Shown: positions 45,288 through 64,000 of the stretch, piece by piece | Position numbering within the stretch: position 1 is the stretch's first letter | Layout: each line of letters starts with the position of its first letter | Assembly (NCBI RefSeq): GCF_900104925.1 | Contig: NZ_LT629735.1 | Coordinates: forward strand, 2,835,001-2,899,000 | Origin: Opitutus sp. GAS368 | GTDB lineage: Bacteria; Verrucomicrobiota; Verrucomicrobiia; Opitutales; Opitutaceae | Direction of reading: 5' to 3' | Length of the DNA: 64,000 bases | The notes under the pieces: generated by a model | The model's database searches: none | The model's input: only the letters and a program-made list of their open reading frames with translations | What the model was told of the DNA's origin: nothing | Translations under genes and position numbers: made by a program

Positions 45288-46373
45288 ATGCCTGTCCCCT
45301 TTGTTGTCACCAAGTTCGACTTCCGGCCGCTCGACATCCCGCTGCACACGCCCTTCGGCATTTCCGGCGGAGCGCAGGCGATGGCCAACAACGTGCTCGT
45401 GACGGTCGGGCTGGAAGGCGGAGCGGTCGGCTATGGCGAGGCGGCCCCGCTGCCGCCTTACAACGGGGAAACCCAGGCGGACGCCCTCGCCACCCTGGCC
45501 GGGGCGCGCCGTTGGCTGGTCGGCCGGCACGCGGCGGACTGGCGCGCGTTGGCCGGGGAATTCCGCCAGCGCGGCGGCGGGCGGTGCGGCTCGGCCCAAT
45601 GCGCGTTCGAGATGGCGCTGCTCGACGCCCTGACCCGGCGCGACGGCACGCCGTTGTGGAAATTCTTCGGCGGCGCCGGCACGGCGCTCGAGACCGACAT
45701 GACCGTGACGACCGGCTCGCCCGAGCAGGCTGCGACAGACGCCCGCGCCATCCGGGCCCGGCGCATCCGCCTGATCAAGGTCAAGGTCGGCGGCCCCAAG
45801 GGCCCGGCTTACGACCTGGCGCGGCTGAAGGCGATCCACGAGGTGGCGCCGGACGCTCCGCTCATTCTCGACGGCAACGCCGGCGTTTCCCGCGCCGACG
45901 CCACCACGCTGGTGCAGGGCCTCCGCGGTCTCGGCATCAAACCGGCCCTGCTCGAGCAATGGCTGGCCAAGGACGATCTGGTTGGCCTGCGGGCGCTCGG
46001 CGAGGAAAGCGGCTGGTTGGTGGCCGGTGACGAGAGCGTCTGCTCGGCGGCCGACGCCCAGAAGCTGGCCGACGCCCAGGCGGTCCAGGTGCTCAACATC
46101 AAGCTGATGAAGGCCGGCATTGCGACCGCGCTCGAGATCGTCGCCGTCGCCCGTCGCACGGGCCTCGGTCTCATGATCGGCGGCAATGTCGAGTCGATCC
46201 TCGCGATGACCGTGTCGGCGTGCTTCGCGGCGGGGCAGGGGGGCTTCACCTTCGCCGACCTCGACACGCCGCTGTTCCTGGCGACGAACCCCTTCGACGG
46301 CGGCTTCGCCCTCGACGGCGGCGCCATCTCGGTGGCGCACATCACGGCCGGGCACGGCGTCGTGCCGAAATAG
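45288..46373 (+). CDS. Dipeptide (L-Ala-D/L-Glu) epimerase, enolase superfamily
   Basis: 361 residues. An N-terminal capping domain (about 1-125) then a modified TIM barrel with the lysine pair K164-x-K166 (IKVKVGG), metal ligands in LILDGNAG, LEQWLA and VAGDESV, the opposite lysine in VLNIKLMKAG, and the C-terminal ADLDTPLF motif characteristic of dipeptide epimerases. These enzymes convert L-Ala-D-Glu from murein stems into L-Ala-L-Glu so peptidases can use it. Neighbouring anmK and murQ support that role; the precise dipeptide is inferred. Confidence 0.88.
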   Translation: MPVPFVVTKFDFRPLDIPLHTPFGISGGAQAMANNVLVTVGLEGGAVGYGEAAPLPPYNGETQADALATLAGARRWLVGRHAADWRALAGEFRQRGGGRCGSAQCAFEMALLDALTRRDGTPLWKFFGGAGTALETDMTVTTGSPEQAATDARAIRARRIRLIKVKVGGPKGPAYDLARLKAIHEVAPDAPLILDGNAGVSRADATTLVQGLRGLGIKPALLEQWLAKDDLVGLRALGEESGWLVAGDESVCSAADAQKLADAQAVQVLNIKLMKAGIATALEIVAVARRTGLGLMIGGNVESILAMTVSACFAAGQGGFTFADLDTPLFLATNPFDGGFALDGGAISVAHITAGHGVVPK

Positions 46374-46466: not shown

Positions 46467-48017
46467 TCAGTCAGAGCGCTCCGTTGCCGGTCCGGGCCAC
46501 ACCGCCTTCACGACCCACGCTGTGCCAAGCGTCAGCGTGGTGCCGATCAGCGTGAACCACGGCCAGAAGACCTCGCCACCGAACAGTTTCATCCATGCGT
46601 CGCGCAGTCCCGGCACGTTCGGCGGCCAGTAGATCAGGTTCATGGCGAGGAAGGATACGATCATGCCCGCCATGGCGGCGCGGGCGCCGACCCGCCGGCC
46701 GAAGAGGGCGAGGATCAGCCCGCCGAGCAGCGCACCGCTGGTGAGGCCGCGCAGGGAGAAGGCGGCGTTGAGGACGAATTGCACCTCACGTGACAGCCAC
46801 GCCACGCCCACGAGCACGACCGCCCAGAAAACCGTCGAGAGCCGGCTGAACCGCAGGAAGTAGGCCTCGTCCCGGTCCCGCACCATCTGCCGGACAAAGT
46901 CCATGGTCGAAACCGACGCCAGCGCGGTGAGGGCGGAACTGATCGAGGACATCGCCGCCGCTAGAATGGCCACGAGCAGGAACCCCTTCAGCACGTGCGG
47001 CACCTCGGTCAGCATGAAGATCGGGAAGACGAAGTCCGTTGACTTGATACCCGGCCGGGCCTCGGGCAACGGAATTTGGAACGGATGGCTCTGGTAGAAC
47101 ACCCAGAGCATGACGCCCACGAGAAGGAAGATCAGGAACAACGGAAAGATCAGCACCGCGCTCAAGCCGAGCGCCTTCCGGCCGTCGGCCACGTCGCGGC
47201 AGGCGAGCACGCGCTGCACGATGAGCTGCTCGGCGCCGTGGGACGACAGCACCAGCACCGTGCCGCCGAGGACGCCCATCCAGAGGTTGAAGGGCGCGGA
47301 GAACGTGAAACGGGTGTTGAGCCACACGAGTTTCCCGGCCGCGCCCGCCTGGGCCAGCGCGGCGCCCCAGCCGCCGTCCAAGAGGGTCGGGATGTAGCAA
47401 AGCGCGAACAGGCCGCCGCCGAGGAAGAGCCCGAACTGCACCGCGTCGGTCCAGATGACCGCCTTCACCCCGCCGATGCAGGTGTAGAGCAGCGACAGGG
47501 TGACGAAGATCAGGATCGCGCCGAGGATCGGGTCGACGATGCCGCCGAGGCTGCAGACGCGCTCGCCCAGCATGAGCCGGATGGGAATGCAGGCGACGTA
47601 GACGCGCACGCCGGCCGCCAGCGTCTCGAGAAACAGGAAGAACGCACCCGCCAGCCGGCGCGGTCCGCGGCCGAGATGCTGCTCGAGCAGCTGGTAGGGC
47701 GAATAGATTTCACCCTTCAGGTAATGCGGCACCATCACGACGGCCAGGATGATGCGGGCCAGCACGTAGCCGAAGATCATCTGGATGAACATCAGGTCCG
47801 AGCCGTAGGCGATGGCCGGCACGCCGATGACCGTCAGCGCGCTGGTCTCGGCGGCGACGATCGAGAACCCGATGCCCCACCAGGGAATGTTGCGGCTGCC
47901 GAGGAAATAGTCGCGCGTGTTGCGCTGGTCCCGGCCGAGCCAGATCCCCAGGCCGATGATGCCGCCGAGATAGGCGACAATGACCAGCCAGTCGCCGGGG
48001 TTGAGGTAGCCGTTCAT
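46467..48017 (-). CDS. Sodium:solute symporter (SSS family)
   Basis: 516 residues, 13-14 membrane helices. WWGIGFSIVAAETSALTVIG in helix 2 and AILAAAMSSISSALTALASV in the Na+-site helix are SSS signatures. Close to sialic-acid/sugar-type SSS in layout (AAETSA). Between the epimerase and the deacylase-PBP4 fusion, it may import a released amino sugar, dipeptide or D-amino acid; substrate is inferred only from context. Confidence 0.9.
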   Translation of the reverse strand: MNGYLNPGDWLVIVAYLGGIIGLGIWLGRDQRNTRDYFLGSRNIPWWGIGFSIVAAETSALTVIGVPAIAYGSDLMFIQMIFGYVLARIILAVVMVPHYLKGEIYSPYQLLEQHLGRGPRRLAGAFFLFLETLAAGVRVYVACIPIRLMLGERVCSLGGIVDPILGAILIFVTLSLLYTCIGGVKAVIWTDAVQFGLFLGGGLFALCYIPTLLDGGWGAALAQAGAAGKLVWLNTRFTFSAPFNLWMGVLGGTVLVLSSHGAEQLIVQRVLACRDVADGRKALGLSAVLIFPLFLIFLLVGVMLWVFYQSHPFQIPLPEARPGIKSTDFVFPIFMLTEVPHVLKGFLLVAILAAAMSSISSALTALASVSTMDFVRQMVRDRDEAYFLRFSRLSTVFWAVVLVGVAWLSREVQFVLNAAFSLRGLTSGALLGGLILALFGRRVGARAAMAGMIVSFLAMNLIYWPPNVPGLRDAWMKLFGGEVFWPWFTLIGTTLTLGTAWVVKAVWPGPATERSD

Positions 48018-48261: not shown

Positions 48262-48305
48262 ACGGATGGCTGGACACCAAGCACGTGGCCGGTGAAGAAT
48301 CCCCC

Positions 48306-51287
48306 ATGCGATTCATCCTCGGCGCGGCCGCCCTGCTGGCCTGCGTTCCCCTCGCCTCAGCGGAAGAATTCGACCTCATCATCCGCCACGGGCGGGTGGT
48401 CGACGGCACCGGCACCCCGGCCTTCTTCGCCGACGTCGCCGTGCGCGACGGCCACATCGCCCGCATTGGCCGGGTGGAGGGCACGGCGAAGGCCGAGATC
48501 GATGCCGCCGGGCTGATCGTCGCCCCGGGCTTCATTGACGTGCACACCCACGCCGACGAGGTCGCGGACCAGCCGCTGGCCGAGAACTTCCTGCGCATGG
48601 GCGTCACCTCGATCGTCGTCGGCAACTGCGGCGGCTCGGCGCTCGATGTCGCCAAGTTCTACCGCGACGTCGAGCACAACAGGGTTTCGATCAACGTGAC
48701 GACGCTCATCGGGCACAACACCGTACGCACGGCCGCCATGGGCGGCAGTTTCGACCGCGCCCCGACGCTCGGGGAGATGGCGAAGATGAAGGGCCTGGTC
48801 GATCGCGCGATGCAAGACGGCGCCGTGGGCCTCTCCACCGGGCTGATCTACCTGCCGGGGACGTTTGCCAAGACCGACGAGATCGTCGAGCTGGCCAAGG
48901 CCGTCACGCCCTACGGCGGCATCTACGCCAGCCACATGCGCCACGAGGACACGCGGATCTACGCCGCGCTCGACGAGGTGTTCGCGGTTGCGCGCGGGGC
49001 GCACCTGCGCGCCGAGGTTTCGCACCTCAAGCTTTCCGGCGAGAACGCCTGGGGCCAGGCCGACAAGGTCCTCGCCTACATCGAGGCAGCGCGGGCGAGC
49101 GGCCTCGATATCACCCAGGACCAATATGCCTACACCGCGTCGAGCACGACCATGCGGCAGCTGATCCCCGACGACGCGTTCAACGGCGGCCACGCGCATT
49201 TCATGGCGGTCCTCGACGACCCGATAAAGAAGGCCGATTTGGTGATGCGCATGAAGCAGAACATCCTGACCCGCGGCCGGGCGGATTACGCCTACGCGGT
49301 GGTGGCGTCGTTCCGCCACGACACCTCGATCAACGGGATGAACATCCTCGAGGCGGCCAAGAAGCTCCACGGCTCCGATTCGCTCGACGCCCAGATCGAG
49401 GTGATCCTCGACTTTGAGAAAAACGGCGGCGCCCAGGGCGTGTTTCACGGCATGGACGAGCAGGACCTGCAGAAGTTCATGCGCCACCCGAACACCATGA
49501 TCGCCTCGGACAGCGGGATTCGCGAGTTCGGCAAGGACGTCCCGCATCCCCGCGGCTACGGCAACAACGCCCGGGTCCTGGGCCGTTACGTGCGCGACCT
49601 GAAGGTGCTCACCCTCGAGGACGCCGTCCGCAAGATGACCAGCCTGCCGGCCACGACCTACCGCTTTACCGGCCGCGGCGAATTGAAGGAAGGCAACTGG
49701 GCCGACATTGCGGTCTTCGACCCCGAGAAGATCGGCGATCCCTCCACCTACGCCGACCCGCACCATTATGCCATCGGCGTGCCCTGGGTCCTCGTCAACG
49801 GCGTGCCCGTCATCGCGCAGGGCGAGCACACCGGCGCGAAGCCGGGCATGGCCTGCCGCTTTGCCGGCGCGCAGGTCGCGCTGCAGGCGCAGCTCGAGGC
49901 CTACGTCACCCAGCCGAAGTTTGCCGGCGCCTTCTGGGGCGTGAAGGTCGTCTCGCTCGACACCGGCCGCACGCTCTTCGCGCACGCGGCGGACGCACGG
50001 ATGAGCCCGGCCTCGAACAGCAAGCTTTACGCCTGCGCGCTCGCGCTCGACCAGCTGGGCGGCGACTACCGGATCGTGACGCCCCTGCTCGCCACGGCTC
50101 CGGTGGATGCGGCCGGGAACATCAAGGGCGACCTGATCATCAGCGGCCGGGGCGACCCGGGCTGGAACCCGCGGATGGAAAAGAAGGATTTCTGGACGGC
50201 GTTCGAACCGTTCATCGCCGCACTGAAGCAGGCCGGCGTGAAGCGCGTCACCGGCGATCTCGTGGCCGATGCGACCTGGCTGCGCGAACCACCGCAGGGC
50301 GCGGGCTGGGCGGTGGGCGACCTGCAGGATGATTACGGCGCGGAGATCTCGGCGATCTCGCTCGACGAGAACTATGTCGACCTGCACGTCACGCCGGCGA
50401 AGGAGATCGGGCAGCCCGGCGTCGCGGAATTCAAGCAACCGTTGAGCGGCCTGGTGCTCGACAACCGCACCGTCACGACCGCCGCGGGCGGCCAGCGCCA
50501 CCTCCAGGTGCAGCGCCTCCCCGGCGAGAACCGCGTGCTGTTGCAGGGGGAACTGCCCCTGGGCGGCAAGGCGGAGGAAACCGGGGTCACGATGGAGCGG
50601 CCGGCCGACTGGTTCGCCACCTGCCTGCGCGAGGCGCTCAAGCGCGCCGGCATCCCGGTCGAGGGCAAGGCCGTCGGCGTCCGCTGGCCCGAGCCGCCCC
50701 GCCCCGGCGCGGTGAAGCTGGGCGAAGTCGCGTCCGCGCCGCTGCGCGAGATCGTCGCGACGATCATGAAGCCGTCGCAAAACCTGAAGACCGACCTGGT
50801 GTTCGACCACCTGGGTGAACTGCGGCGCAAGCCGGACACGCCGGCCTGGCGGCAATCCGACGAACTGGCCGTGGCGGCCCTGGACGGGTTCCTCGCGACG
50901 GCCGGCGTCGCGAAGGGTCACACGATTTTCGAGGAAGGCTCGGGCCTGTCCCGCAACAACCTCACCACGGCCGACGCCACGGTGCGCCTGCTCCAGTTCA
51001 TGGCCGCGCACAAGGAGCACGACGCCTTCGTCGCGGCGCTGCCCGTCGCCGGCGTGGACGGCTCGCTGCGCCGGCGCATGAAGGGCACGGCGGCCGAGGG
51101 CAATGTCCGTGCCAAGACCGGCACGCTGCGCTACGCGAGTTCACTCTCGGGCTACGTGACCACGGCGGCGGGCGAGAAACTCGCATTCAGCCTGATGGTA
51201 AACCGCTACCCGGTGCCGGACGACGCCAAGGCCGGCGATCCGCTCGACGAACTGGCGGTGCTGCTGGCGCAATACGGCGGGAAATGA
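48306..51287 (+). CDS. Exported fusion: N-acyl-D-amino-acid deacylase + PBP4-type D,D-peptidase
   Basis: 993 residues with a signal peptide (MRFILGAAALLACVPLASA). Residues about 20-510 are a D-aminoacylase-type amidohydrolase: HxH at 80/82 (DVHTHAD), GNCGGSA, STGLIYLPGTFAKTDEI, SHMRHEDTR, EVSHLKLSG, and ASDSGIR late in the barrel. Residues about 520-993 are a peptidase S13 (PBP4/DacB) with all three active-site motifs: SNSK at 570-573, SRN at 882-884, KTG at 937-939. The frame is continuous with no stop or repeat at the joint. It would remove terminal D-Ala or cut D,D-crosslinks and then free N-acylated D-amino acids. The ATG at 48306 gives the signal peptide. Confidence 0.93.
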   Translation: MRFILGAAALLACVPLASAEEFDLIIRHGRVVDGTGTPAFFADVAVRDGHIARIGRVEGTAKAEIDAAGLIVAPGFIDVHTHADEVADQPLAENFLRMGVTSIVVGNCGGSALDVAKFYRDVEHNRVSINVTTLIGHNTVRTAAMGGSFDRAPTLGEMAKMKGLVDRAMQDGAVGLSTGLIYLPGTFAKTDEIVELAKAVTPYGGIYASHMRHEDTRIYAALDEVFAVARGAHLRAEVSHLKLSGENAWGQADKVLAYIEAARASGLDITQDQYAYTASSTTMRQLIPDDAFNGGHAHFMAVLDDPIKKADLVMRMKQNILTRGRADYAYAVVASFRHDTSINGMNILEAAKKLHGSDSLDAQIEVILDFEKNGGAQGVFHGMDEQDLQKFMRHPNTMIASDSGIREFGKDVPHPRGYGNNARVLGRYVRDLKVLTLEDAVRKMTSLPATTYRFTGRGELKEGNWADIAVFDPEKIGDPSTYADPHHYAIGVPWVLVNGVPVIAQGEHTGAKPGMACRFAGAQVALQAQLEAYVTQPKFAGAFWGVKVVSLDTGRTLFAHAADARMSPASNSKLYACALALDQLGGDYRIVTPLLATAPVDAAGNIKGDLIISGRGDPGWNPRMEKKDFWTAFEPFIAALKQAGVKRVTGDLVADATWLREPPQGAGWAVGDLQDDYGAEISAISLDENYVDLHVTPAKEIGQPGVAEFKQPLSGLVLDNRTVTTAAGGQRHLQVQRLPGENRVLLQGELPLGGKAEETGVTMERPADWFATCLREALKRAGIPVEGKAVGVRWPEPPRPGAVKLGEVASAPLREIVATIMKPSQNLKTDLVFDHLGELRRKPDTPAWRQSDELAVAALDGFLATAGVAKGHTIFEEGSGLSRNNLTTADATVRLLQFMAAHKEHDAFVAALPVAGVDGSLRRRMKGTAAEGNVRAKTGTLRYASSLSGYVTTAAGEKLAFSLMVNRYPVPDDAKAGDPLDELAVLLAQYGGK

Positions 51288-51383: not shown

Positions 51384-52523
51384 ATGAACCCTCCGGCCCG
51401 CCTCGTCTCCCTCGACGCGTTTCGCGGCGCGACGATCGCGGGCATGCTGCTCGTGAACAACCCCGGCTCGTGGAGCGACATCTACCCGCCGCTGGAACAC
51501 GCGCCGTGGAACGGGTGGACGCCGACCGACATGATCTTTCCCTTCTTCCTGTGGATCATCGGCGTGGCGATGACGCTGTCGTTTGCGCGGCGGGTCGGGC
51601 AGGGGGCCGATCGCAGCCAGCTTTTCCGGCATGTAGTCATCCGCGCGGCCATTATCTTCGGGGTCGGGATTTTCCTGGTGATGTTCCCGTTCGGGCTGCT
51701 GCCCGAGCAACATTTCTCCTTCGCGAAGATGCGCATCCCCGGCGTGCTCCAGCGCATCGGGCTCTGTTACCTGGCGGCCGGGGCGATTTTCCTGCGCACC
51801 GGCTGGCGCGGGCAGCTCGCGTGGGCCGTCGGGCTGCTGGCCGGTTACTGGGCGCTGCTGGTCTGCGTGCCGGTGCCCGGCTATGGCGCCGGCGTGCTCG
51901 AGCCGACGGGCAACCTTTGCTGGTGGATCGATTCCCACGTGCTGGCCGGCCACACGTGGAGCGGGGCGCCGGTGCCGGGTTTCGACCCCGAGGGCATCCT
52001 CTCCACCCTGCCGGCGATCGCCACCACGCTGCTCGGGGTGCTGGCCGGCCAGATGATGCGCCGCTGGTCGGGCGGGGCGCTGACCGCCCGGTTGCTCGGG
52101 GGCGGTGGGGCGTTGCTGACGCTTGGAGCGCTGATGTCCCTGGTGCTGCCGATCAACAAGAATCTCTGGACCAGCTCCTATGCCGTGTTCATGGCCGGCT
52201 GGGCCCTGGTGCTGCTCGCGGTGTTTCACTGGCTCATCGACGTGCGCGGCTGGTCGCGCTGGGCCGCGCCGCTCGTGATCTACGGCACCAACGCCCTCGC
52301 GATGTTCGTGTCGGCCGGCGTGCTGGGCAAGCTGCTCTACCTCATCAAGTGGACCGGCGCGGACGGGCAGGGCATCACGCTGAAGGGCTGCATCTACCGG
52401 AACGCGTTCGTGCCGCTGGCCAGCCCGGTGAACGCCTCGCTGCTCTTCGCGCTGGCGTTTGTGCTGCTGCACTTCGCCTTCGCGTGGATCCTGTGGCGCC
52501 GGAAGTGGTTCGTGAAAATCTGA
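51384..52523 (+). CDS. NagX-like (HGSNAT/DUF5009-type) membrane protein
   Basis: 379 residues with 10-11 predicted membrane helices. The N-terminus RLVSLDAFRGATIAGMLLVNNPG and WNGWTPTDMIFPFFLWIIG are the signature of the heparan-alpha-glucosaminide N-acetyltransferase catalytic family; bacterial members called NagX lie in GlcNAc/MurNAc clusters. It could acetylate or help move amino sugars through the inner membrane. The start is the first ATG after the palindrome; the stop of the fusion gene is 97 bp upstream. Confidence 0.9.
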   Translation: MNPPARLVSLDAFRGATIAGMLLVNNPGSWSDIYPPLEHAPWNGWTPTDMIFPFFLWIIGVAMTLSFARRVGQGADRSQLFRHVVIRAAIIFGVGIFLVMFPFGLLPEQHFSFAKMRIPGVLQRIGLCYLAAGAIFLRTGWRGQLAWAVGLLAGYWALLVCVPVPGYGAGVLEPTGNLCWWIDSHVLAGHTWSGAPVPGFDPEGILSTLPAIATTLLGVLAGQMMRRWSGGALTARLLGGGGALLTLGALMSLVLPINKNLWTSSYAVFMAGWALVLLAVFHWLIDVRGWSRWAAPLVIYGTNALAMFVSAGVLGKLLYLIKWTGADGQGITLKGCIYRNAFVPLASPVNASLLFALAFVLLHFAFAWILWRRKWFVKI

Positions 52524-52771: not shown

Positions 52772-53041
52772 GCTTCATTCTCAGAACGCCGTCGAGACGG
52801 CGAAGTCCGCCGGGACGTTCCGCGTGGCCTACGGTCTCTCGCCGCCGCCGCCGAGAAGGGTGGGTGGAGGATCGGAGGAGTAGGTAGAAATGATGGGTAA
52901 TTTGACAATTCCGCCACAAAAGAGTGTGGCTTGCGGGGACCGCGCCGGGCGATCCGGAGAGGGACAGGAATTTCTTTGTCAAGGCATGGGGAAGCCCTTA
53001 GTCGTTTTTTCGTCCCTAGCCTTCACCAACACACCTTCTGG

Positions 53042-53063
53042 CCGCGGCGCGTTTTCGCCGCGG
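53042..53063 (+). promoter_or_regulatory. Leader hairpin before the TonB-receptor start codon
   Basis: A perfect 8-bp G+C stem CCGCGGCG/CGCCGCGG with loop CGTTTT ends 18 bp before the start codon. A TTGACA hexamer lies at 52902-52907. The hairpin would sit in the 5' untranslated leader close to the ribosome site and might affect translation. Confidence 0.4.
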
Positions 53064-53081
53064 TGGAAATACTACATCATT

Positions 53082-55994
53082 ATGAGCAAACCCATGTCTC
53101 GTCGTCTGGGCCTGATTCAGGCCATCCCCGCATGCTTCGGCATCGTTCTGTTCGGCCTCCTGGCTCCCTCCGTCGCGGCCCAGACCACCGCCCCGGCCGA
53201 CACCGCGAATGAACCGGTCAAGCTGGAGAAGCTGGTCGTCACCGGCTCCCTGATCAAGCGCGTGGCCGACTACGGCGCCGTGCCGATGGACATCATCACT
53301 CCCGCCGAGCTCGACCAGCAGGGCGTCACCAGCGTCGAACAAATGGTGATGAACCTGAACATCAACGGCAATTCCCTGGACAACCTCGCCAGCAACTCCG
53401 ACGTCGCCACCGGCGGCGCCGCGACCCGCGGCATCAACGGCTCCACGGGAGCCAACCTGCGCTTCCAGGGCTCCAACGCCACGCTGGTCCTCGTCAACGG
53501 CCGCCGCGTCGCCCAGCACGGCCTGAACGGCGGCGGCACCGTCGACCTCAACTCGATCCCCGTGCAGGCCATCAAGCGCATCGAGGTGCTCAAGGACGGC
53601 GCCTCGTCCATCTACGGCACCGACGCCATCGGCGGCGTGATCAATTTCATCCTCAAGGACGACTACCAGGGCCTGGCGGTCAAGACCGGCTTCGACGTCA
53701 CCCAGGAGGGCGGCGCCGACATCTACCGGGCGTCCATCGTCGGCGGCTACGGCAACCTGAACAAGGACAAGTTCAATGTCATGGCCTCCCTGTCGTATGC
53801 CGACAACACGCGCCTCCTCGGCAGCCAGCGCTCCTGGGTCAACACCCAGCAGCCGGACCGCGGCATCTCGGCCGATACGCGCGGCACCCCGTTCGCCACC
53901 CTCTCCGGACTCACCACGCTCTCCAACGTGCTCAGCGGCGCCACCAGCAAGGGCAGCTTCTTTGATCCCACCATCGGGCTGTCGGTCTCCACGGTCAACA
54001 CCCTCGTGCTGCAGGGGGCGGGCGCCCTCGCCGGCACCGGGATGTATCCGTATGATTATCAACTCTGGTCCAATGCCTCCACCAAGTATGGTGCGACGAT
54101 GGACACCGGCGTGACCGCCGCCCTGCAGCAGCCGGTGAAGAACACCAATTTGGTGACCTCGGCCGCCTACAAGGTGGGCGACACGATCTTCCGGTTCGAA
54201 GGGCTCTTCGGCCGGTCGCAGTCCACGAAGTATTTCTCCGCGCAGCAGATCACGTCCGCCCAGACCACCAGCACGGTGTCCCTGCCCAACGGCACGCTCG
54301 TGCCCAATCCGCTCGCCGGCCTCGCCTATCCGAGCACGGCGCCCGGCTATGCCGCGGTGTTCAACACCCTGGTCGCGGCCTTCCCCCAGCTGGCGGGCAA
54401 CAACGGCCTCCCCATGACCTTCCGCTGGCGCCTTTACCCGGGCGGACCGCGGGAATACTCCACCCAGAGCGACACCTGGCGCGCGCTGGTTTCGGCCGAG
54501 GGTCCGGTGCCGTTCCTCAAGGACTGGGATTACAACGCGAGTCTTTCCCGGGCCAGCAGCAAGAGCTATTCGGTGCTGACCAGCGGCTATTATTACACGG
54601 CCGGGCTGGCGAACCTCATCAACACCGGTGTGCTGAATCCCTTCTCCTTCACCCAGACCGATTCCGCCCTGCAGCAGCTCGCGGCCGTCTCGGCCGCCGG
54701 CGTGAAACTTTACGGCGGCACCTACACGACCGACAACTTCAACGCCTCCGCCACGGGTCCGGTGTGGAAACTGCCCGCCGGCGACCTGCAGGCGGCGTTG
54801 GGCGTCGATTACGCCAAGGAGGGATTTACCCTGGCTGGTGACCAACGCCCGAACGCCAACACGGCCGCCGCGCTGATTGCCAACGCCCCGTTTGACAATT
54901 CCAACGCCACGCTGGGCACGCTGACCCGCACGGTTAAGGCGGTCTTCGCCGAACTCGACATTCCCGTCATCAAAGGCGTCGACTTCAATCCCTCCGTGCG
55001 CACCGATAATTACAGCGGGTTTGGCACCACGACCAACCCGAAGTATACGCTGCGCATCCAGCCGGCCGAATGGCTGCTTTTCCGCGGTTCCTACAGCACC
55101 GGCTTCCGCGTGCCGACCTTCGCGCAGGAATACTTCCCGGCGATCACGCAGCCGGGTTCCTCCGCGATCGTTGATCCGACCAACGGCAATGTGGTCAACA
55201 GCTACAACGTCCGGACGGGCAGCGAGTCCAGCCTCAACCCCGAGACCGCGCGGATGAAGTCGGTGGGCGTGGTTATCTCCCCCAACAAGCACCTGAGCTT
55301 CAGCGCGGACTGGTGGAGCATCGACCGCAAGGGCACGATTGCCACGCTCTCCGTCTCCACCATCCTGGCCAATTACACCCTGTTCCCCGACCGCCTGATC
55401 CGCGACGCCAGCGGCGTGCTCAACACGATCGACGACACCTATATCAACGCGGGCGAGGCGCTCACGGAAGGCATCGAGCTCGGCGCCCACGCCAATCAGG
55501 ATCTGTTCGGCGGCGTGGTTTCGGCGGACTTTGATCTCGGCGACCTGCTGGTGAAGAAGTCGCGCATCCTCGCCTCCACCCCGTTCGGTCCCACCGAGGT
55601 CGGCCGGTTCACCCGCTTCAGCGATCTGGGCATCAAATACAAGGCCACCCTCGCGTTGAACTACCGCCGGAAGGACTGGGCCTTCACGCTCACCCAGATC
55701 TACCGTTCCGGCTACATGGACAACCCGGAGGGCAACATCGGGCTCGGGACCTATCTCCCGCCGAATTGGAACCCCAAGGTCGCTTCCTACACGCTCTATA
55801 ACCTGACGGCCAGCTACACGGGCCTGATCAAGAACCTGACCCTTGTCGCCGGCATCAAGAACCTCTTCAACACCAACCCGCCGTTCTCCGCCTACTACGA
55901 CACCAACTCGGGTGCGGGCAGCGATTGGGACCCGCGCGTGGGTGACCCGCGCGGCCGGTCCTTCGTCCTGTCCGCGGAATACAAGTTCTTCTGA
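53082..55994 (+). CDS. TonB-dependent outer membrane receptor
   Basis: 970 residues. Signal peptide (GIVLFGLLAPSVAAQ), a plug domain (about 50-180) with KLEKLVVTGSLIKRVADYGAVP, LVNGRRVA and the SSIYGTDAIGGVINFILK end, and a 22-strand barrel ending in RSFVLSAEYKFF with a terminal Phe. Takes up large or scarce substrates using TonB energy. No SusD partner is next to it. Position between NagX and M20/anmK/murQ genes suggests muropeptides or amino sugars as cargo; inference only. Confidence 0.93.
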   Translation: MSKPMSRRLGLIQAIPACFGIVLFGLLAPSVAAQTTAPADTANEPVKLEKLVVTGSLIKRVADYGAVPMDIITPAELDQQGVTSVEQMVMNLNINGNSLDNLASNSDVATGGAATRGINGSTGANLRFQGSNATLVLVNGRRVAQHGLNGGGTVDLNSIPVQAIKRIEVLKDGASSIYGTDAIGGVINFILKDDYQGLAVKTGFDVTQEGGADIYRASIVGGYGNLNKDKFNVMASLSYADNTRLLGSQRSWVNTQQPDRGISADTRGTPFATLSGLTTLSNVLSGATSKGSFFDPTIGLSVSTVNTLVLQGAGALAGTGMYPYDYQLWSNASTKYGATMDTGVTAALQQPVKNTNLVTSAAYKVGDTIFRFEGLFGRSQSTKYFSAQQITSAQTTSTVSLPNGTLVPNPLAGLAYPSTAPGYAAVFNTLVAAFPQLAGNNGLPMTFRWRLYPGGPREYSTQSDTWRALVSAEGPVPFLKDWDYNASLSRASSKSYSVLTSGYYYTAGLANLINTGVLNPFSFTQTDSALQQLAAVSAAGVKLYGGTYTTDNFNASATGPVWKLPAGDLQAALGVDYAKEGFTLAGDQRPNANTAAALIANAPFDNSNATLGTLTRTVKAVFAELDIPVIKGVDFNPSVRTDNYSGFGTTTNPKYTLRIQPAEWLLFRGSYSTGFRVPTFAQEYFPAITQPGSSAIVDPTNGNVVNSYNVRTGSESSLNPETARMKSVGVVISPNKHLSFSADWWSIDRKGTIATLSVSTILANYTLFPDRLIRDASGVLNTIDDTYINAGEALTEGIELGAHANQDLFGGVVSADFDLGDLLVKKSRILASTPFGPTEVGRFTRFSDLGIKYKATLALNYRRKDWAFTLTQIYRSGYMDNPEGNIGLGTYLPPNWNPKVASYTLYNLTASYTGLIKNLTLVAGIKNLFNTNPPFSAYYDTNSGAGSDWDPRVGDPRGRSFVLSAEYKFF

Positions 55995-56153: not shown

Positions 56154-56390
56154 CCAGATTCACAGGAGAACGCAGAAATCGCAGAGAAATCAAATCACTC
56201 CCCAGTCATGAATCTGCACGATGCATTGGAATGTAGGGTCGCCGCTTGCCGGCGGACCGGTCCGGCGACAAGCGCCGACCCTGCAGGACGTTTGCTGACC
56301 ACGAATCCAAACTCACCGACGTCGTCTCCCGGCTCATCCTGCCGGGAGCCAACGCTTGATCTCTGCGCTCTCTGCGACCTCCTGTAAATC
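56154..56390. repeat. Nested palindromes before the M20 peptidase gene
   Basis: Outer arms ttcacaggagaacgcagaaatcg (56159 on) and cgctctctgcgacctcctgta (to 56387). Inner unit tgtagggtcgccgcttgc...aagcgccgaccctgca (56231-56286) of the same family as 51315-51375. The inner element looks inserted in the outer one, and the outer unit's right arm ends just before the start codon at 56392. The rest of the 397-bp gap shows nothing else. Confidence 0.85.
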
Positions 56391-56391
56391 G

Positions 56392-57621
56392 ATGTCTTCC
56401 GTATCCGTTCCTCCCGTCATCACTGCGCTTTCGACCCGCACCCCGGCCCTGGCCGCGTTGCTCGAGCGCTGGGCCAACATCAACTCCGGTTCCCAGCACG
56501 CCGCCGGACTCGCCCGCATGGCGGCCGAGCTGCGCGCCGTGTTCAGCGCAGCCTTTCCGGCCGCCGCGTTCGAGGAGCTCTCCGCCGACGCCCCGGGCTT
56601 CAACCCGCCGGGCGCGAAGGCGCTGCGCTTCCGCCTGCGTCCGTTCGCGGCCCGCCAGGTTTTCCTTTGCGGACACTACGACACCGTCTACGCCGCGGAC
56701 GATGCCTTTCAGACCTGCCGGTGGCTTGACGACGGGACGCTCAACGGCCCGGGCGTGACCGACATGAAGGGCGGCCTGGTCGTGCTGCTGGCCGCGCTCG
56801 AGGCCTTTGAACAGACGCCGTCGGCCGCCAACCTCGGCTGGGAGGTGCTGCTCACGCCCGACGAGGAGACCGGTTCGCACGGCACGCGGGCGATGTTCGA
56901 GGCCGCCGCGCGGCGCAACCATTTCGGCTTTGTCTTCGAGCCCGCCCGCCCCAGCGGCGACATCATCCACTCGCGCAAGGGCACGGGCGGCATCACGGCC
57001 ATCTGCCGCGGCCGCGCGGCGCACGCGGCGAAGATCCCGAACGACGGTCGCAACGCCATCCTCGGCCTCGCGGAATTCCTGCTCGCCGCCGCGAAGATTC
57101 CGGCGGAGATGCCGGGCGTGCTGGTCAACGTCGGCAACATTCGCGGCGGCAGCGCCGCGACCAACGTCGTGCCGGATTTCGCGCAGGCCGAGCTCGACCT
57201 CCGCATCACGCGCCTGGCGGACCAGGCACCGCTCTTCGCCCGGCTGGAAACCCTGGCCCGCGAGACCGGGGCCGCGCAGGGTGTGACATTCGAGCTCATC
57301 GGCGGTCTCAACCGGCCGCCGAAGGAGAATCATCCCACCGAGGCCGCCTTGTTCCCGGAGTTCCAGCGGGCCGCGCAGGATGTCGGCCTCAAGCCGTTCG
57401 GCTGGGTCCACGGTGGCGGCGCCTCCGACGGCAACTTCCTCGGCGCCGCCGGGCTGCCGTGCTTTGATGGCATCGGGCCCGAGGGCGACCACCTGCACAG
57501 CACGCGCGAATTCTGCCGCATCGCGACGATCGCCCCGCGGGCGCAGAACGTCGCGCTGTTTCTGCATCGGCTGGCGACGGGCGAGATTTCGCTGCCGGCG
57601 GCTGCAGGCCATGGGGGCTGA
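56392..57621 (+). CDS. M20-family peptidase (carboxypeptidase G2-like)
   Basis: 409 residues. Dizinc site residues: His95 and Asp97 (CGHYDTVY), bridging Asp124 (GVTDMKGG), catalytic Glu158 and ligand Glu159 (TPDEETGS), a later Asp/Glu in FEPARPSG and His near HLHSTREF. A lid dimerisation domain lies at about 200-310. CPG2 relatives remove C-terminal Glu or split dipeptides, so this enzyme could split L-Ala-L-Glu made by the epimerase. No signal peptide; cytoplasmic. Start at 56392 follows the repeat. Confidence 0.9.
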   Translation: MSSVSVPPVITALSTRTPALAALLERWANINSGSQHAAGLARMAAELRAVFSAAFPAAAFEELSADAPGFNPPGAKALRFRLRPFAARQVFLCGHYDTVYAADDAFQTCRWLDDGTLNGPGVTDMKGGLVVLLAALEAFEQTPSAANLGWEVLLTPDEETGSHGTRAMFEAAARRNHFGFVFEPARPSGDIIHSRKGTGGITAICRGRAAHAAKIPNDGRNAILGLAEFLLAAAKIPAEMPGVLVNVGNIRGGSAATNVVPDFAQAELDLRITRLADQAPLFARLETLARETGAAQGVTFELIGGLNRPPKENHPTEAALFPEFQRAAQDVGLKPFGWVHGGGASDGNFLGAAGLPCFDGIGPEGDHLHSTREFCRIATIAPRAQNVALFLHRLATGEISLPAAAGHGG

Positions 57622-57883: not shown

Positions 57884-58999
57884 TTACTCCGGCAGGAACA
57901 GGCCGCCGAGCACCGCCGGGCGCTGCGCGCCGGTGACGACCGGGGAGTTGCCGGGTTGGGCGTGCCAGCGCTGGCGCGCGAGCCAGGCGAACGCCATGGC
58001 CTCGACCCAACCGGCGGCCACGCCGAGCGCATCGGTCCGGTCCACCGCGGCGCGGGGCAGCAGTCCCCGCAGCGCGGCCATCAGGGCGGGGTTGTTCGCC
58101 CCGCCGCCGCAGACAAAGACGCCGGGAGCATCCGTCCCCGCGGCTTGCCGGATGGCGGTGGCGATTGTTTGCGCCGTGAGCGCCAGCAGCGTGGCCTGCA
58201 CATCGGCGTCGGCGACGGAGCCGGCCGCCGTCAGGTGCCGTTCCAGCCAGGCCGGCGAGAAATATTCCGGGCCCGTGCTCTTGGGCGGCGTTTTCTTGAA
58301 GTAAGGATCCGCCAGCAAGGCGGCGAGCAGCGCGGGCGCGAGGCGGCCGCGGGCGGCAAGAGCGCCGTCGCGATCCATGGGTTGCTGGAGCACCCGGCGG
58401 CTCCAGGCATCCATGAGCGTGTTGCCGGGGCCGGTGTCGAAACCGGCGATCGGCGCGTCCGCCCGCCCGGGCAACACGGTCAGGTTGGCGATGCCGCCGA
58501 TGTTGACCACCACGCGGTCCTGGCCCGCCGCGCGGAAAACCGCCTCGTGAAACGCCGGCACCAGCGGGGCCCCTTGGCCGCCGAGCGCCATGTCCTTGCG
58601 GCGGAAGTCCGCCACGACCGGGATGCCGGTCAAGGCTGCAATCACGTTCGGGTCGCCGATCTGCAGGGTGAAGGCCGCCGGACCGGCAGGGCGGTGGCGG
58701 ATGGTCTGGCCGTGGCTGCCGACGGCGCCGACGGCCTCGGGCGGCAGCGCCGCCTTGGCCAGCAGTTCATTGACGGCCTGCGCGAAGCACCGGCCGGCCA
58801 GCACGTCGGCCCGGCCCAGGCGGTCGATCTCGTTTTCCCCCGGCGTGCCCAGCGCGAGCAGCTCCCGGCGCAATTCCTCCGGGTAGGGCAGGGAGTGCGA
58901 CGCCACCAGGGCGGGCTGCGGGTCAAAGCGCACCAGCGCCACGTCGATGCCGTCGATGCTTGTGCCCGAGAGCGCGCCGATGAAGAGTTCCGGTTTCAA
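57884..58999 (-). CDS. anmK: Anhydro-N-acetylmuramic acid kinase
   Basis: 371 residues of the ASKHA kinase superfamily. FIGALSGTSIDGIDVALV (phosphate-1), GSHGQTIRHRP, VADFRRKDMALGGQGAPLVP (with the catalytic Asp), VNIGGIANLTVL and FDTGPGNTLMD match AnmK throughout. It hydrolyses the 1,6-anhydro bond of anhydroMurNAc and makes MurNAc-6-phosphate, the substrate of MurQ encoded just across the 55-bp divergent gap. Confidence 0.96.
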   Translation of the reverse strand: MKPELFIGALSGTSIDGIDVALVRFDPQPALVASHSLPYPEELRRELLALGTPGENEIDRLGRADVLAGRCFAQAVNELLAKAALPPEAVGAVGSHGQTIRHRPAGPAAFTLQIGDPNVIAALTGIPVVADFRRKDMALGGQGAPLVPAFHEAVFRAAGQDRVVVNIGGIANLTVLPGRADAPIAGFDTGPGNTLMDAWSRRVLQQPMDRDGALAARGRLAPALLAALLADPYFKKTPPKSTGPEYFSPAWLERHLTAAGSVADADVQATLLALTAQTIATAIRQAAGTDAPGVFVCGGGANNPALMAALRGLLPRAAVDRTDALGVAAGWVEAMAFAWLARQRWHAQPGNSPVVTGAQRPAVLGGLFLPE

Positions 59000-59054: not shown

Positions 59055-59945
59055 ATGCTCCCGACTGAAACTCCCAGCGACCAGCATCCCGATCTGGATC
59101 TTTATCCGACCGAAGAACTCGTGGGCGCGTTCACCGCCGACCAGGTCCACGCCGCCAACGTCGTGCACGCCGCCGCCGCCGCGCTCGCGCGGGCGGTGGA
59201 CGCGGCCGTCCCGCGCCTCGCGGCCGGGGGCCGGCTCATCTACGCCGGCGCCGGCACCTCGGGCCGCCTCGGCCTGCTCGACAGCGTGGAGCTGTTCCCG
59301 ACCTTCGGCTGGCCCAAGGCGCGCGCCCTCGCGCTGATCGCCGGCGGCAAGCCGGCGCTGTTCGAGGCCGTGGAGGGTGCGGAGGACGACCGGGCCCAGG
59401 GCGCGGCGGATCTGCGGGCGCTCGCCCCGACGGCCCAGGACGTGGTCATCGCCCTCGCGGCCTCGGGCGCCACGCCCTATGCCCTTGGCGTGCTGGAAGC
59501 GGCCCAGGCCGCCGGCGCCCTGACCATCGGGATCGCCAACAATCCCGATGCGCCGGTCACGCGCGCGGCGGCGGTGGGCATCACGCTCGCCACCGGCAGC
59601 GAGACGATTTCCGGCAGCACGCGCCTCAAGGCCGGCACCGCCCAGAAGATCGCGCTCAACACGCTCTCCAGCTCCATCATGGTCCGGCTGCACAAGGTCT
59701 ACGGCAACCTGATGGTCGATGTGCTCCCGACCAACGCCAAGCTCTACCGGCGGGCGCTGGCCCTCACGGTGCGGGCGAGCGGGGCCGACGAGGCCGCGGC
59801 GCGTGCGGTGCTCGAGCAGTGCAATTACCACGTGAAGACCGCCATCGTGGCGCTGCGCCTGAAGTCGGATGTGGCGGCCGCCCGGGCCGCCCTCGATCGC
59901 GCCGCCGGCAGCGTGCGGCAGGCGCTCGGGGAGGCGAAGAAATGA
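59055..59945 (+). CDS. murQ: N-acetylmuramic acid 6-phosphate etherase
   Basis: 296 residues, one SIS domain with sugar-phosphate motifs YAGAGTSGRLGLLDSVEL, AVEGAEDD (catalytic Glu region), ALAASGATPYALGV and SGSTRLKAGTAQKIALN. It cleaves D-lactate from MurNAc-6-P to give GlcNAc-6-P. Divergent from anmK and followed by the DigH-like lipoprotein; an ATG at 59942 overlaps its stop. Confidence 0.97.
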   Translation: MLPTETPSDQHPDLDLYPTEELVGAFTADQVHAANVVHAAAAALARAVDAAVPRLAAGGRLIYAGAGTSGRLGLLDSVELFPTFGWPKARALALIAGGKPALFEAVEGAEDDRAQGAADLRALAPTAQDVVIALAASGATPYALGVLEAAQAAGALTIGIANNPDAPVTRAAAVGITLATGSETISGSTRLKAGTAQKIALNTLSSSIMVRLHKVYGNLMVDVLPTNAKLYRRALALTVRASGADEAAARAVLEQCNYHVKTAIVALRLKSDVAAARAALDRAAGSVRQALGEAKK

Positions 59946-59955
59946 GCGTGGTGAA

Positions 59956-60022
59956 GGTAGGGCGAATCCTCTGGATGAGCCGTTGGCGTTCGTGCGGCTC
60001 GTCAGGGACGACTCGCCCTACC
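59956..60022. repeat. Palindrome at the 5' end of the DigH-like gene
   Basis: ggtagggcgaatcctctgg (left) and gggacgactcgccctacc (right) with inner gatgagcc/ggctcgtc. It begins 10 bp after the murQ stop and ends at the base before the ATG at 60023. It is absent from the protein family's usual N-terminus, so it is an insertion. Confidence 0.88.
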
Positions 60023-61537
60023 ATGGGATGGTGTCTCTTGGCCGGGCTGGTGGTCCTTCTCGCCGGGTGCGTGACGCCCCTGCGCACGGTGGTCGCCCCG
60101 CCGCCGGCGCCGCGCGAGTTCCGCGCCGTCTGGGTCGCCACCGTGGCCAACATCGACTGGCCGTCGCAGACCGGGCTGCCGGTGGCGCAGCAGCGCGCCG
60201 AGATGATCACGCTGCTCGACCGGGCCCGCGCCCTGAAATTCAACGCCGTCATCCTGCAGGTGCGGCCGGCCGCCGACGCGCTCTACCCGTCGAAGCTCGA
60301 GCCGTGGTCCGAATACCTCAGCGGCACCCAGGGTGTCGCGCCGGCCCCGCTGTATGATCCGTTGCAGGAGTGGATCACCGAGGCGCACCGCCGCGGCCTC
60401 GAGCTGCACGCGTGGTTCAATCCCTACCGCGCCCGGCACGACAAGGCGAAGTCCGCGTTCGCGCCGACGCACATCGCCCGGACGCACCCGGACTCGGTGA
60501 AGCGCTATGGCGACTTCTGGTGGATGGATCCGGGTGACGAATTCGCCTCCCAGCGCACGCTGGCGGTGGTTGATGACGTGGTCCGGCGCTACGACGTGGA
60601 TGGGATCCACATCGACGACTATTTTTATCCGTATCCCATCCCGGCCCCGTTGCCCAAGGGCAAAAAGCTCGCACCCGGGGAGGCGGCGCCGGTCGTGGAT
60701 TTTCCGGATGACGCCTCGTGGCAACGCTATCGTGCCGCCGGCGGCAAGCTGGAGCGCGCGGACTGGCGGCGGGAAAACGTCAACCAGCTGATTGAGCAGC
60801 TGCACGCCCACGTCCACGCCCTCAAACCGTGGGTGAAATTCGGCATCAGTCCCTTCGGGCTCGGCCGGCCCGACCGCCGGCCGCCCGGCATCGAGGGCTT
60901 CAGCCAATACGACAAGCTCTACGCCGACGCGGAGCTCTGGCTCCAGCGGGGCTGGCTCGATTACTTCGCGCCGCAGCTCTACTGGCGCGCGGGTCAGAAA
61001 GGCCAGGATTTCGGCACGCTGCTCGACTACTGGGCCCGGCAGAACACCATGCAGCGCCACGTCTGGCCCGGCCTCTACACGAGCGCGATCGGCGACGCGC
61101 CCAAGGGCTGGACCCCGGAGGACATCCTCAGGCAGATCAGCCTCGTCCGCGCGGATCCGCGCTTCACGGGCCACATCCAATACAGCATGGTGGCGCTGCT
61201 CGAGGACCGCCACGGCATCGCGCAAAAGCTGGCGGTGGCCGCCTATGCAGACGAGGCGCTCGTGCCGGCCACACCGTGGCTCGACGCGACCCCGCCCGCG
61301 GTCCCCCAGCTGAAGCGGCAGAAATCCGGCGCGGTCGCCATCCTTCCGACCCCGGGCAAGCCCGCGGCCAGCTATGCCCTCTGGCGCCAGCAGGACGGGG
61401 CGTGGAAATTCTCCATCCTGCCGGCCGGCCCCAACCTGATTCCGGCCGCCGCCACGGAGAACCTGGTGGTCTCGGCGGTGGACCGGCTGGGCAACGAAAG
61501 CGCGCGCGTCACCCTGCCGGGGATCGTTGCGCGCTGA
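60023..61537 (+). CDS. DigH-like glycosidase lipoprotein (GHL10/DUF187 family)
   Basis: 504 residues. Lipobox LAGC (MGWCLLAGLVVLLAGC) then a GHL10 TIM barrel with FRAVWVATVANIDWPSQTGL, VILQVRPAADALYPS, HAWFNPYRARHD, GIHIDDYFYPYP, and GISPFGLGRPDR, DYFAPQLYWR, followed by a fibronectin-like C-terminus. Members include E. coli DigH (YddW), which cuts stem-free peptidoglycan strands. The ATG at 60023 starts right after the palindrome; a frame from 59942, overlapping the murQ stop, would add 27 basic residues before the lipoprotein signal. Probably co-transcribed with murQ. Confidence 0.9.
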   Translation: MGWCLLAGLVVLLAGCVTPLRTVVAPPPAPREFRAVWVATVANIDWPSQTGLPVAQQRAEMITLLDRARALKFNAVILQVRPAADALYPSKLEPWSEYLSGTQGVAPAPLYDPLQEWITEAHRRGLELHAWFNPYRARHDKAKSAFAPTHIARTHPDSVKRYGDFWWMDPGDEFASQRTLAVVDDVVRRYDVDGIHIDDYFYPYPIPAPLPKGKKLAPGEAAPVVDFPDDASWQRYRAAGGKLERADWRRENVNQLIEQLHAHVHALKPWVKFGISPFGLGRPDRRPPGIEGFSQYDKLYADAELWLQRGWLDYFAPQLYWRAGQKGQDFGTLLDYWARQNTMQRHVWPGLYTSAIGDAPKGWTPEDILRQISLVRADPRFTGHIQYSMVALLEDRHGIAQKLAVAAYADEALVPATPWLDATPPAVPQLKRQKSGAVAILPTPGKPAASYALWRQQDGAWKFSILPAGPNLIPAAATENLVVSAVDRLGNESARVTLPGIVAR

Positions 61538-63053: not shown

Positions 63054-64000
63054 CTAGGGCGCACCGGGCGCGCCCTCGGGCAGCGTCGGCAACCGGAGCA
63101 GCCGGCGGGCGCCGTTGATAACCTTGTCCCACTGCAAGGCCGGGCCCGGGTCGGTCTTGTTGGTCTGGATGTGGTAATGGCCGAGCACCCCGTGGTATTT
63201 CGCGAGGTCGTCGTCCGCCAGCTTCTGCGGGATCAGCCGGCCCTTGGCGTCGCGGGGGTAGTCGCAGGTGATGTTCGGGAAGACCTTGCAGAGCGTGGCG
63301 GTGAGGCGGATCAACGCGGCGTATTGCTGCGGCGTGAAGTCGTATTGTTCGAGCGCCTCGCCTTGGATGACCCCGTGCACGGGGTCGGGCCGGGCGGGAT
63401 GGCCGGTGAAGCCCGGCGTGCGGAACATCGGGTCGCCGAGCTTCTCCGGCACCTTGATGTAGGGCTGCCCCTTGGCGTCGCGCGGATACCAGTCGTCGAG
63501 CGGCTGCCGCTCCTTGGCCGGGTAGGCGCCGATGTTCGCGATCTCGATGCCGATGGAGCGGTCGTTGCTGATCGTGGCATGCCGGGCGCGCTCCTTGAGG
63601 TCGAGCGTCTGGTAGATGGTGCCGTCGAGATCCAGCATGAAGTGGACGCTCAGGTCGCGGTGGTCCTGCAAGGTGTTGAAGCAATACCTGCTGATGCCCG
63701 CCACGTCGTAGTGCAGGACGAACTGGTCCACGACGCGCTGCAGCGCCGGCAGGTCCCAGCCGCCGCCACGGTGGAGTTCGATTTCCTCCGGGGTCAGCGA
63801 TTTCTGCCGCAGGCTGTAGCGGTTGGGCGACCCGAACTTGGGCAGCGCGGCGATCGTCTTGTCCCAGTCGCTCTCGGCGAAGGGCGCGAAGCGCCGCTCG
63901 ACGCGGTAGGCGTCGTAACCGCCCGGATCCATCCAGGTCACGACCTTCGTGCCGGTGTGGAAGAGCTGGCCGGCGACGACAATCTCGTCCCCCTTGCGCG
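63054..64000 (-). CDS. N-acetylmuramoyl-L-alanine amidase (Ami_2), 5' end outside the window
   Basis: At least 315 residues visible; the frame stays open to the last base, and residues upstream of the first ATG/GTG (ending GTKVVTWMDPGG) read as coding, so the N-terminus is beyond the window. Ami_2/AmpD-type zinc residues: His in FVLHYDVAG, GIEIANIG with the Glu, and LGHYHIQTNKTDPG with His and Asp. It cuts the MurNAc-L-Ala bond, freeing stem peptides from glycan. Convergent with the toxin-like gene, and the last member of the peptidoglycan locus visible here. Confidence 0.9.
   Translation of the reverse strand, partial: RKGDEIVVAGQLFHTGTKVVTWMDPGGYDAYRVERRFAPFAESDWDKTIAALPKFGSPNRYSLRQKSLTPEEIELHRGGGWDLPALQRVVDQFVLHYDVAGISRYCFNTLQDHRDLSVHFMLDLDGTIYQTLDLKERARHATISNDRSIGIEIANIGAYPAKERQPLDDWYPRDAKGQPYIKVPEKLGDPMFRTPGFTGHPARPDPVHGVIQGEALEQYDFTPQQYAALIRLTATLCKVFPNITCDYPRDAKGRLIPQKLADDDLAKYHGVLGHYHIQTNKTDPGPALQWDKVINGARRLLRLPTLPEGAPGAP

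Follow-up and report, generated by a model that had tools for sequence, protein, structure and literature searches.

The window analysed here, a whole stretch of 64,000 nucleotides from Opitutus sp. GAS368 (contig NZ_LT629735.1, positions 2,835,001 to 2,899,000, forward strand), contains a gene that joins a D-aminoacylase-type amidohydrolase (AH) and an S13-family D,D-peptidase of the PBP4 type in a single exported protein of 993 residues. The AH-PBP4 fusion is confirmed as real and is seen in one bacterial family only, apparently Opitutaceae. What is new is the joining of two enzyme families already known, not the kind of enzyme, and a literature search limited to one paper collection found no AH-S13 fusion. 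The open frame, the signal peptide, the aligned active sites, purifying selection, a neighbourhood of muropeptide-catabolism genes and the co-occurrence of the two halves together make it moderately probable that the protein is a periplasmic two-enzyme system for dismantling D-residue-containing peptides from peptidoglycan.

The frame runs uninterrupted from the ATG at 48306 to the stop codon ending at 51287, with an in-frame GTG upstream at 48285, and its third-position GC of 0.92 is the coding pattern of a real gene. The protein matches (i) Amidohydro_3 over residues 64-502 (77.6 bits, Pfam cut-off 29.7), (ii) Peptidase_S13 (PF02113) over residues 526-982 (325.6 bits, cut-off 22.8), and (iii) the TIGR00666 PBP4 model (270.2 bits, cut-off 107.8). 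Its peak hydrophobicity lies in the N-terminal leader and the same scan detects no comparable hydrophobic stretch at the joint, so that one signal serves both domains; the unfused PBP4 proteins of relatives (loci L073, L074 and L107) start with leaders of their own. The open frame, the domain matches, the leader and ten fused loci thus bear out the preliminary description of this DNA, which had proposed a D-aminoacylase and a PBP4-type D,D-peptidase in one exported protein; the joint, which it had placed at about residues 510-520, lies at about residues 518-526. An antisense open frame of 887 residues lies opposite the fusion (window 48357-51020, minus strand), a common occurrence in GC-rich DNA.

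The distribution of the fusion was followed in 200 genomes of the window's family and in 387 genomes of its phylum. In the family sample, S13 occurs in 48 genomes (49 genes), and AH is fused to nine of these genes, a count that includes one gene (G068) whose N-terminus is lost at the end of its contig. The nine fused genomes span five genera, five of them belonging to the window's own and one to each of four more. A tenth fused locus (L006, JANYAM010000148.1), on a public contig of an Opitutus metagenome-assembled genome, is 93% identical to the window, and was the only fusion among the seven loci returned by that scan of genome contigs, the other six carrying AH alone. Across the phylum sample, 28 genomes possess S13, and the four fused cases all fall in the window's family; none of the 18 S13-bearing genomes outside the family holds a fusion or an S13 frame longer than 587 residues, one of the two phylum scans having been restricted to the two top-scoring candidates in each genome. 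The preliminary description had considered that relatives might always keep the halves as separate genes: this fails for some close relatives, as the ten fused loci demonstrate, yet S13 is unfused to AH in 39 of the 48 S13-bearing family genomes.

An assembly artefact, a frameshift or a missed stop joining two neighbouring genes, the last two of which had been named beforehand as what would undo the fusion, was rejected and retains a negligible probability. AH and PBP4 genes are indeed near neighbours in three relatives (L072-L074), but they lie there on opposite strands, and the ten fused loci come from separate assemblies, with open frames, the same domain order and selection acting on both halves. 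The ratio of nonsynonymous to synonymous substitution rates (dN/dS) between the window and L006 is 0.12 for AH and 0.16 for PBP4, and three further pairs give 0.13-0.27 and 0.16-0.33, respectively; both halves are under purifying selection.

The active site of the PBP4 half was placed against solved PBP4 structures in an alignment of 23 sequences, in which S570, K573, S824, N826 and K937-T-G939 are invariant (23/23). The solved S13 relatives retrieved by full-length profile match comprise 1w5d (302 bits), 2wke (299 bits) and 2ex2 (223 bits), which are DacC from B. subtilis, the R39 enzyme and PBP4 from E. coli, respectively. The PBP4 half shares with them the SxxK, SxN and KTG motifs, and differs in that the AH domain replaces PBP4's own signal peptide and in that the second motif reads SQN, compared with SNN in 1w5d. 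Of the motifs proposed earlier, SNSK and KTG are intact, whereas the SxN motif corresponds to SQN at residues 824-826 and not to SRN, which forms another conserved stretch at residues 882-884. The DacB equivalog model PRK11113 gives 181.9 bits, under its cut-off of 527. Elsewhere, the window's genome encodes one S11 D,D-peptidase and an AmpG-like protein that scores below its cut-off.

Among solved structures, the AH half is closest to the N-acyl-D-glutamate deacylase BbDam (3gip/3giq), the D-aminoacylase AfDam (1m7j) and 9g5m, annotated as an 'amidohydrolase family protein', the family profile scoring 391 bits with 3gip, 382 with 9g5m and 377 with 1m7j. Residue roles were assigned by alignment to 3gip and 1m7j and from PMC12017989, according to which D-aminoacylases have metal, catalytic and carboxylate-anchoring residues in common. 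Twelve positions are invariant in the 22 aligned AH sequences (H80, H82, C108, Y182, H210, H240, K242, Y274, S280, T281, D402 and R416). They include the Cys/His/His metal ligands and the catalytic Asp of D-aminoacylase-like subtype V amidohydrolases (C108, H210, H240 and D402), and, following the roles given there, the Lys, Tyr, Arg, Ser and Tyr that contact the alpha-carboxylate or the acyl group (K242, Y274, R416, S280 and Y182). The complete HxH metal site noted earlier is therefore present, but as part of a fuller set in which C108, H210, H240 and D402 also belong. AH thus keeps the metal, catalytic and carboxylate residues of BbDam and AfDam, and differs from both in being exported and fused. 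The NCBIfam amidohydrolase subfamily PRK09061 gives 206 bits, under the curated cut-off of 340. In the solved relatives, Arg295 (BbDam; D-Glu) and Leu298 (hydrophobic residues) sit in the specificity loop of an insertion domain; the corresponding region of AH, which holds the side-chain pocket, is left unaligned by the profile, which pairs neither Arg295 nor Leu298 with a residue of AH, and a single-sequence alignment puts D289/D290 near the place of BbDam Arg295.

The same alignment bears on the proposal that AH is an OngB-like sugar-acid deacetylase, with amino-sugar acids as substrates and the NagX-like glucosamine acetyltransferase as its partner. OngB ranks within the eight best PDB sequences (339 bits) and a NagX-like gene adjoins the fusion, but 3gip and 1m7j outscore OngB, and T281, just after the anchoring S280, is the D-aminoacylase-type Thr in 22/22 AH sequences where OngB has Ser. 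A Thr/Ser difference sets D-aminoacylases apart from OngB in PMC12017989, and an OngB-like role appears very unlikely.

Table. Features of the fusion gene and of its surroundings in the window
Feature	Position	Strand	Basis or remark
Fusion gene, AH + S13/PBP4 D,D-peptidase, 993 aa	48306..51287	+	frame shared by 9 other loci
N-terminal hydrophobic signal peptide, about residues 1-19	48306..48362	+	hydrophobicity scan
AH domain, residues 1-518	48306..49859	+	
H80-T-H82, amidohydrolase metal site	48543..48551	+	invariant in 22/22 AH sequences
C108, metal-binding Cys of subtype V amidohydrolases	48627..48629	+	alignment; PMC12017989
H210, metal ligand	48933..48935	+	alignment; PMC12017989
H240 (metal ligand) and K242 (substrate carboxylate)	49023..49031	+	alignment; PMC12017989
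D402, catalytic Asp	49509..49511	+	alignment; PMC12017989
R416, substrate carboxylate	49551..49553	+	alignment; PMC12017989
Linker, residues 519-525 (7 residues)	49860..49880	+	4 to 31 residues among ten fused proteins
S13/PBP4 domain, residues 526-993	49881..51284	+	
SxxK motif, S570-N-S-K573	50013..50024	+	alignment with solved PBP4s
SxN motif, S824-Q-N826	50775..50783	+	alignment with solved PBP4s
KTG motif, K937-T-G939	51114..51122	+	alignment with solved PBP4s
MR/MLE-superfamily dipeptide epimerase (L-Ala-D/L-Glu epimerase type)	45288..46373	+	NCBIfam scores below curated cut-offs
Sodium:solute symporter (SSF)	46467..48017	-	
NagX-like membrane acyltransferase	51384..52523	+	183 bits, cut-off 480
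TonB-dependent receptor	52890..55994	+	
M20 metallopeptidase	56356..57621	+	NF005602, 405 bits, cut-off 357
AnmK, anhydro-N-acetylmuramic acid kinase	57884..58999	-	NF007139, 495 bits, cut-off 367
MurQ, N-acetylmuramic acid 6-phosphate etherase	59055..59945	+	NF003915, 350 bits, cut-off 168
GHL10 glycosyl hydrolase-like protein	59819..61537	+	true start probably further downstream
Amidase_2 N-acetylmuramoyl-L-alanine amidase, AmpD-like	63054..63941	-	43.7 bits, AmpD equivalog cut-off 143

The surroundings of the fusion (Table) are partly preserved among its relatives. MurQ passes two models and fails a third (TIGR00274, 284.5 bits, cut-off 302). The NagX-like gene follows within about 1.1 kb downstream in 9/10 fused loci, the epimerase stands upstream in eight of the nine whose upstream side is covered, and a close symporter separates epimerase and fusion in 5/9. 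Since a NagX-like gene or a symporter also occurs within the fetched stretch in 26 of 31 unfused PBP4 loci, the fusion most simply occupies the ancestral place of PBP4, to which AH came. In G040, G074 and G116 (loci L072-L074), the epimerase and AH adjoin PBP4 and NagX in divergent orientation, an arrangement that is a possible intermediate toward fusion. In G031, which has an unfused AH closely resembling the fused type, a beta-lactamase2-type gene (L070:9641-10597, plus strand) starts about 20 bases after AH; the idea that this PF13354 gene is a remnant of PBP4 was discarded after a weak profile comparison (probability 4.9%).

The two halves also travel together when unfused. Taking 50% identity or more as a close AH, PBP4 and close AH occur together in 44 of the 200 family genomes, PBP4 only in four, AH only in eight and neither in 144; the genomes are related, so that Fisher p-values on such counts are not independent tests and their significance is inflated. 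PBP4 is present in 28 of the 30 genomes with AnmK, and 20 PBP4 genomes are without AnmK. A role of AH as replacement for the S66 L,D-carboxypeptidase LdcA was dropped as unsupported by distribution, S66 being missing from 188 of the 200 family genomes anyway.

The halves have different histories. In the AH tree, the window and L006 group with G187 (support 99/97), whereas in the PBP4 tree they group with G037 (100/99), and placing their PBP4 with G187 and G047 is rejected (p-AU 0.00013). Between the window and G187, identity is about 0.9 before the joint and about 0.65 after it, with dS of 0.48 and 0.80, respectively; between the window and G037, dS is 0.55 on either side. The epimerase tree matches that of PBP4, uniting the window, L006 and G037 (96/95), and the NagX tree places the window with G037 and G071 (98/98), apart from G187. 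The TonB-receptor tree, which has no G037 row, offers a third grouping, of the window with G021 and G038 (100/100), indicating that further genes of the island were reshuffled too. The PBP4 test, the step in identity and dS, and the trees of epimerase and NagX make an exchange of the AH half between fused genes the most likely course, within an island reshuffled elsewhere as well; the AH data alone allow a grouping of the window, the JANYAM locus and G037 (p 0.238).

A single fusion event followed by simple descent of both halves did not hold up for PBP4, the PBP4 halves of all ten fused proteins failing as one clade (p-AU 0.001). Without G068 the corresponding clade is admissible (p 0.396), and the fused AH halves as one clade are not rejected (p 0.535). 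In G068, the PBP4 half falls among unfused genes (100/100), and the protein is missing a Cys that precedes the joint in the nine other fused proteins; G068 represents either a swap or a second fusion. In the G037 fusion (L069:8064-11117, minus strand) the linker comprises 31 residues, compared with 4-13 in the others, and looks like an insert.

This mobility suits a fusion of convenience, in which independent periplasmic enzymes with unrelated substrates were tethered by genome rearrangement and AH acts on free N-acetyl-D-amino acids from the environment. Linkers of 4-31 residues, the different trees of the halves, the position of the G068 PBP4 half among unfused genes and the presence of AH in archaea all fit it, as does the activity of known D-aminoacylases on N-acetyl-D-amino acids recorded in PMC12017989. 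The co-occurrence of the halves outside the fusion (close AH in 44 of the 48 PBP4 genomes) argues the other way, together with the recurrence of AH relatives beside beta-lactamase-fold hydrolases in several phyla and the epimerase adjoining unfused AH in G040, G074 and G116, though not in G096, G133, G149 and G177. We consider such a fusion possible, if rather unlikely.

In the preferred reading, the dismantling of peptidoglycan-derived peptides, the PBP4 half would remove terminal D-Ala and open crosslinks between D-Ala and meso-diaminopimelic acid (mDAP), as expected from family knowledge. The AH half would then hydrolyse amides in which the nitrogen comes from a D-amino acid that has its carboxylate free; candidate substrates are small N-acyl-D-amino acids, or stem peptides that end in a D-residue once trimmed. 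The products would enter through the symporter and the TonB system, and the epimerase, the M20 peptidase, AnmK and MurQ would finish them. What the two halves share chemically may thus be the bond attacked, one to a D-amino acid whose alpha-carboxylate is free; stem-peptide bonds of that type are D-Ala-D-Ala, D-Ala-mDAP, mDAP-D-Ala and L-Ala-D-Glu. Given the varying linker length and the independent recombination of the halves, the tether most likely serves to export both enzymes together at a fixed stoichiometry and not to form a rigid relay. The stepwise trimming of stem peptides put forward in the preliminary description is supported by sequence and gene context in its link to cell-wall peptides, whereas the reshuffled joint argues against a tight substrate relay; given AH relatives in archaea and an unaligned AH pocket, such trimming is plausible.

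The wider relatives of AH were followed on plasmids. Although 104 plasmid records match the whole protein, none contains an AH-PBP4 fusion (none aligns with 80% of the query in one place). From 51 matching records, 15 annotated AH neighbourhoods were hand-picked for annotation and spread of genera, a small, plasmid-borne sample whose AH relatives are about 32-41% identical to the window AH. Within about 5 kb of AH, these neighbourhoods comprise (i) a serine hydrolase in 9/15, adjacent in six, (ii) a dipeptide epimerase or DgcA in 5/15, (iii) DUF1611/DgcN in 5/15, and (iv) lysA in 3/15. None of these names appears among the 185 features of four 50-kb control stretches, which were taken from four of these plasmids. 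The six adjacent cases, on Cetobacterium, Deinococcus, Natrialba and Croceicoccus plasmids, resemble the fusion in that an AH relative adjoins a beta-lactamase-fold hydrolase, with lysA, the epimerase or DUF1611 also present in four of them; on two Cetobacterium plasmids the hydrolase and AH genes overlap, downstream of lysA and an M20 peptidase. They differ from the fusion in being separate genes, in their more distant AH, and in partners that belong to PF00144 or PF13354 and not to S13 (seven and one, respectively, of the eight plasmid serine hydrolases typed). Distant AH relatives are thus often, not always, found near beta-lactamase-fold serine hydrolases or dipeptide epimerases. On the haloarchaeal plasmids L125, L126, L128 and L130, a D-aminoacylase stands with a dipeptide epimerase and variously DUF1611, NlpC/P60 and lysA, sets that by their gene content look like stem-peptide catabolism; haloarchaea have no peptidoglycan of their own.

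A more specific proposal takes the fusion as the covalent form of a recurring module of D-specific serine peptidase and D-aminoacylase, with AH acting as a metal-dependent carboxypeptidase on peptides with C-terminal D-residues. D-Ala of mDAP-D-Ala would be an example target, and the two halves would break down the portion of stem peptides made of D-amino acids in the periplasm, much as the cytoplasmic L,D-carboxypeptidase does elsewhere. We judge it unlikely in this specific form.

Several observations weigh against a dedicated role of the fusion in peptidoglycan-peptide breakdown. The window's own genus is represented by 11 genomes in the sample, six of which show neither half, and AnmK was not found in two of the nine fused genomes of the family sample (G047 and G038). 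The epimerase, NagX-like and AmpD-like genes all score under curated cut-offs. Seventeen other unfused AH loci (15 in the family, two outside) are without the neighbours sought, some of the stretches being short, and four of them (G096, G133, G149 and G177) belong to the genus of G040, G074 and G116. S66 L,D-carboxypeptidase was not found in the window's genome, but its absence from 188 of the 200 family genomes means that this says nothing about AH. Among the plasmid neighbourhoods, six of 15 are without a serine hydrolase and three (H30, H34 and H47) without any linked gene, and a looser count would include two genes of the controls, a class D beta-lactamase and an enolase-superfamily gene named menC that lies near an M20 gene. 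Eight of the 15 neighbourhoods are haloarchaeal, so that AH relatives at large are not tied to peptidoglycan made by their host.

If the preferred reading holds, the D-aminoacylase family would gain a natural role in cell-wall peptide turnover, and the cassette of AH, serine hydrolase, dipeptide epimerase and sometimes lysA or DgcN may let some bacteria and haloarchaea feed on D-residue peptides; the protein would also provide a pair of tethered enzymes open to assay both jointly and as separate halves. According to PMC5303756, earlier descriptions had organisms of the verrucomicrobial subdivision holding Opitutaceae lacking both muramic acid and diaminopimelic acid, the latter being present in the four Opitutaceae strains tested there; an island for cell-wall fragments there is therefore of interest in itself.

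Two further frames extend one or the other family. An AH homologue of 36% identity (L075:5577-8630, minus strand) carries in frame about 490 extra C-terminal residues, a region without Pfam match. In G043, an unfused-type PBP4 frame runs into a sulfatase (L076:5473-8607, minus strand; PF02113 at 41-499, PF00884 at 553-840), through either the loss of a stop codon or a further PBP4 fusion of a different kind.

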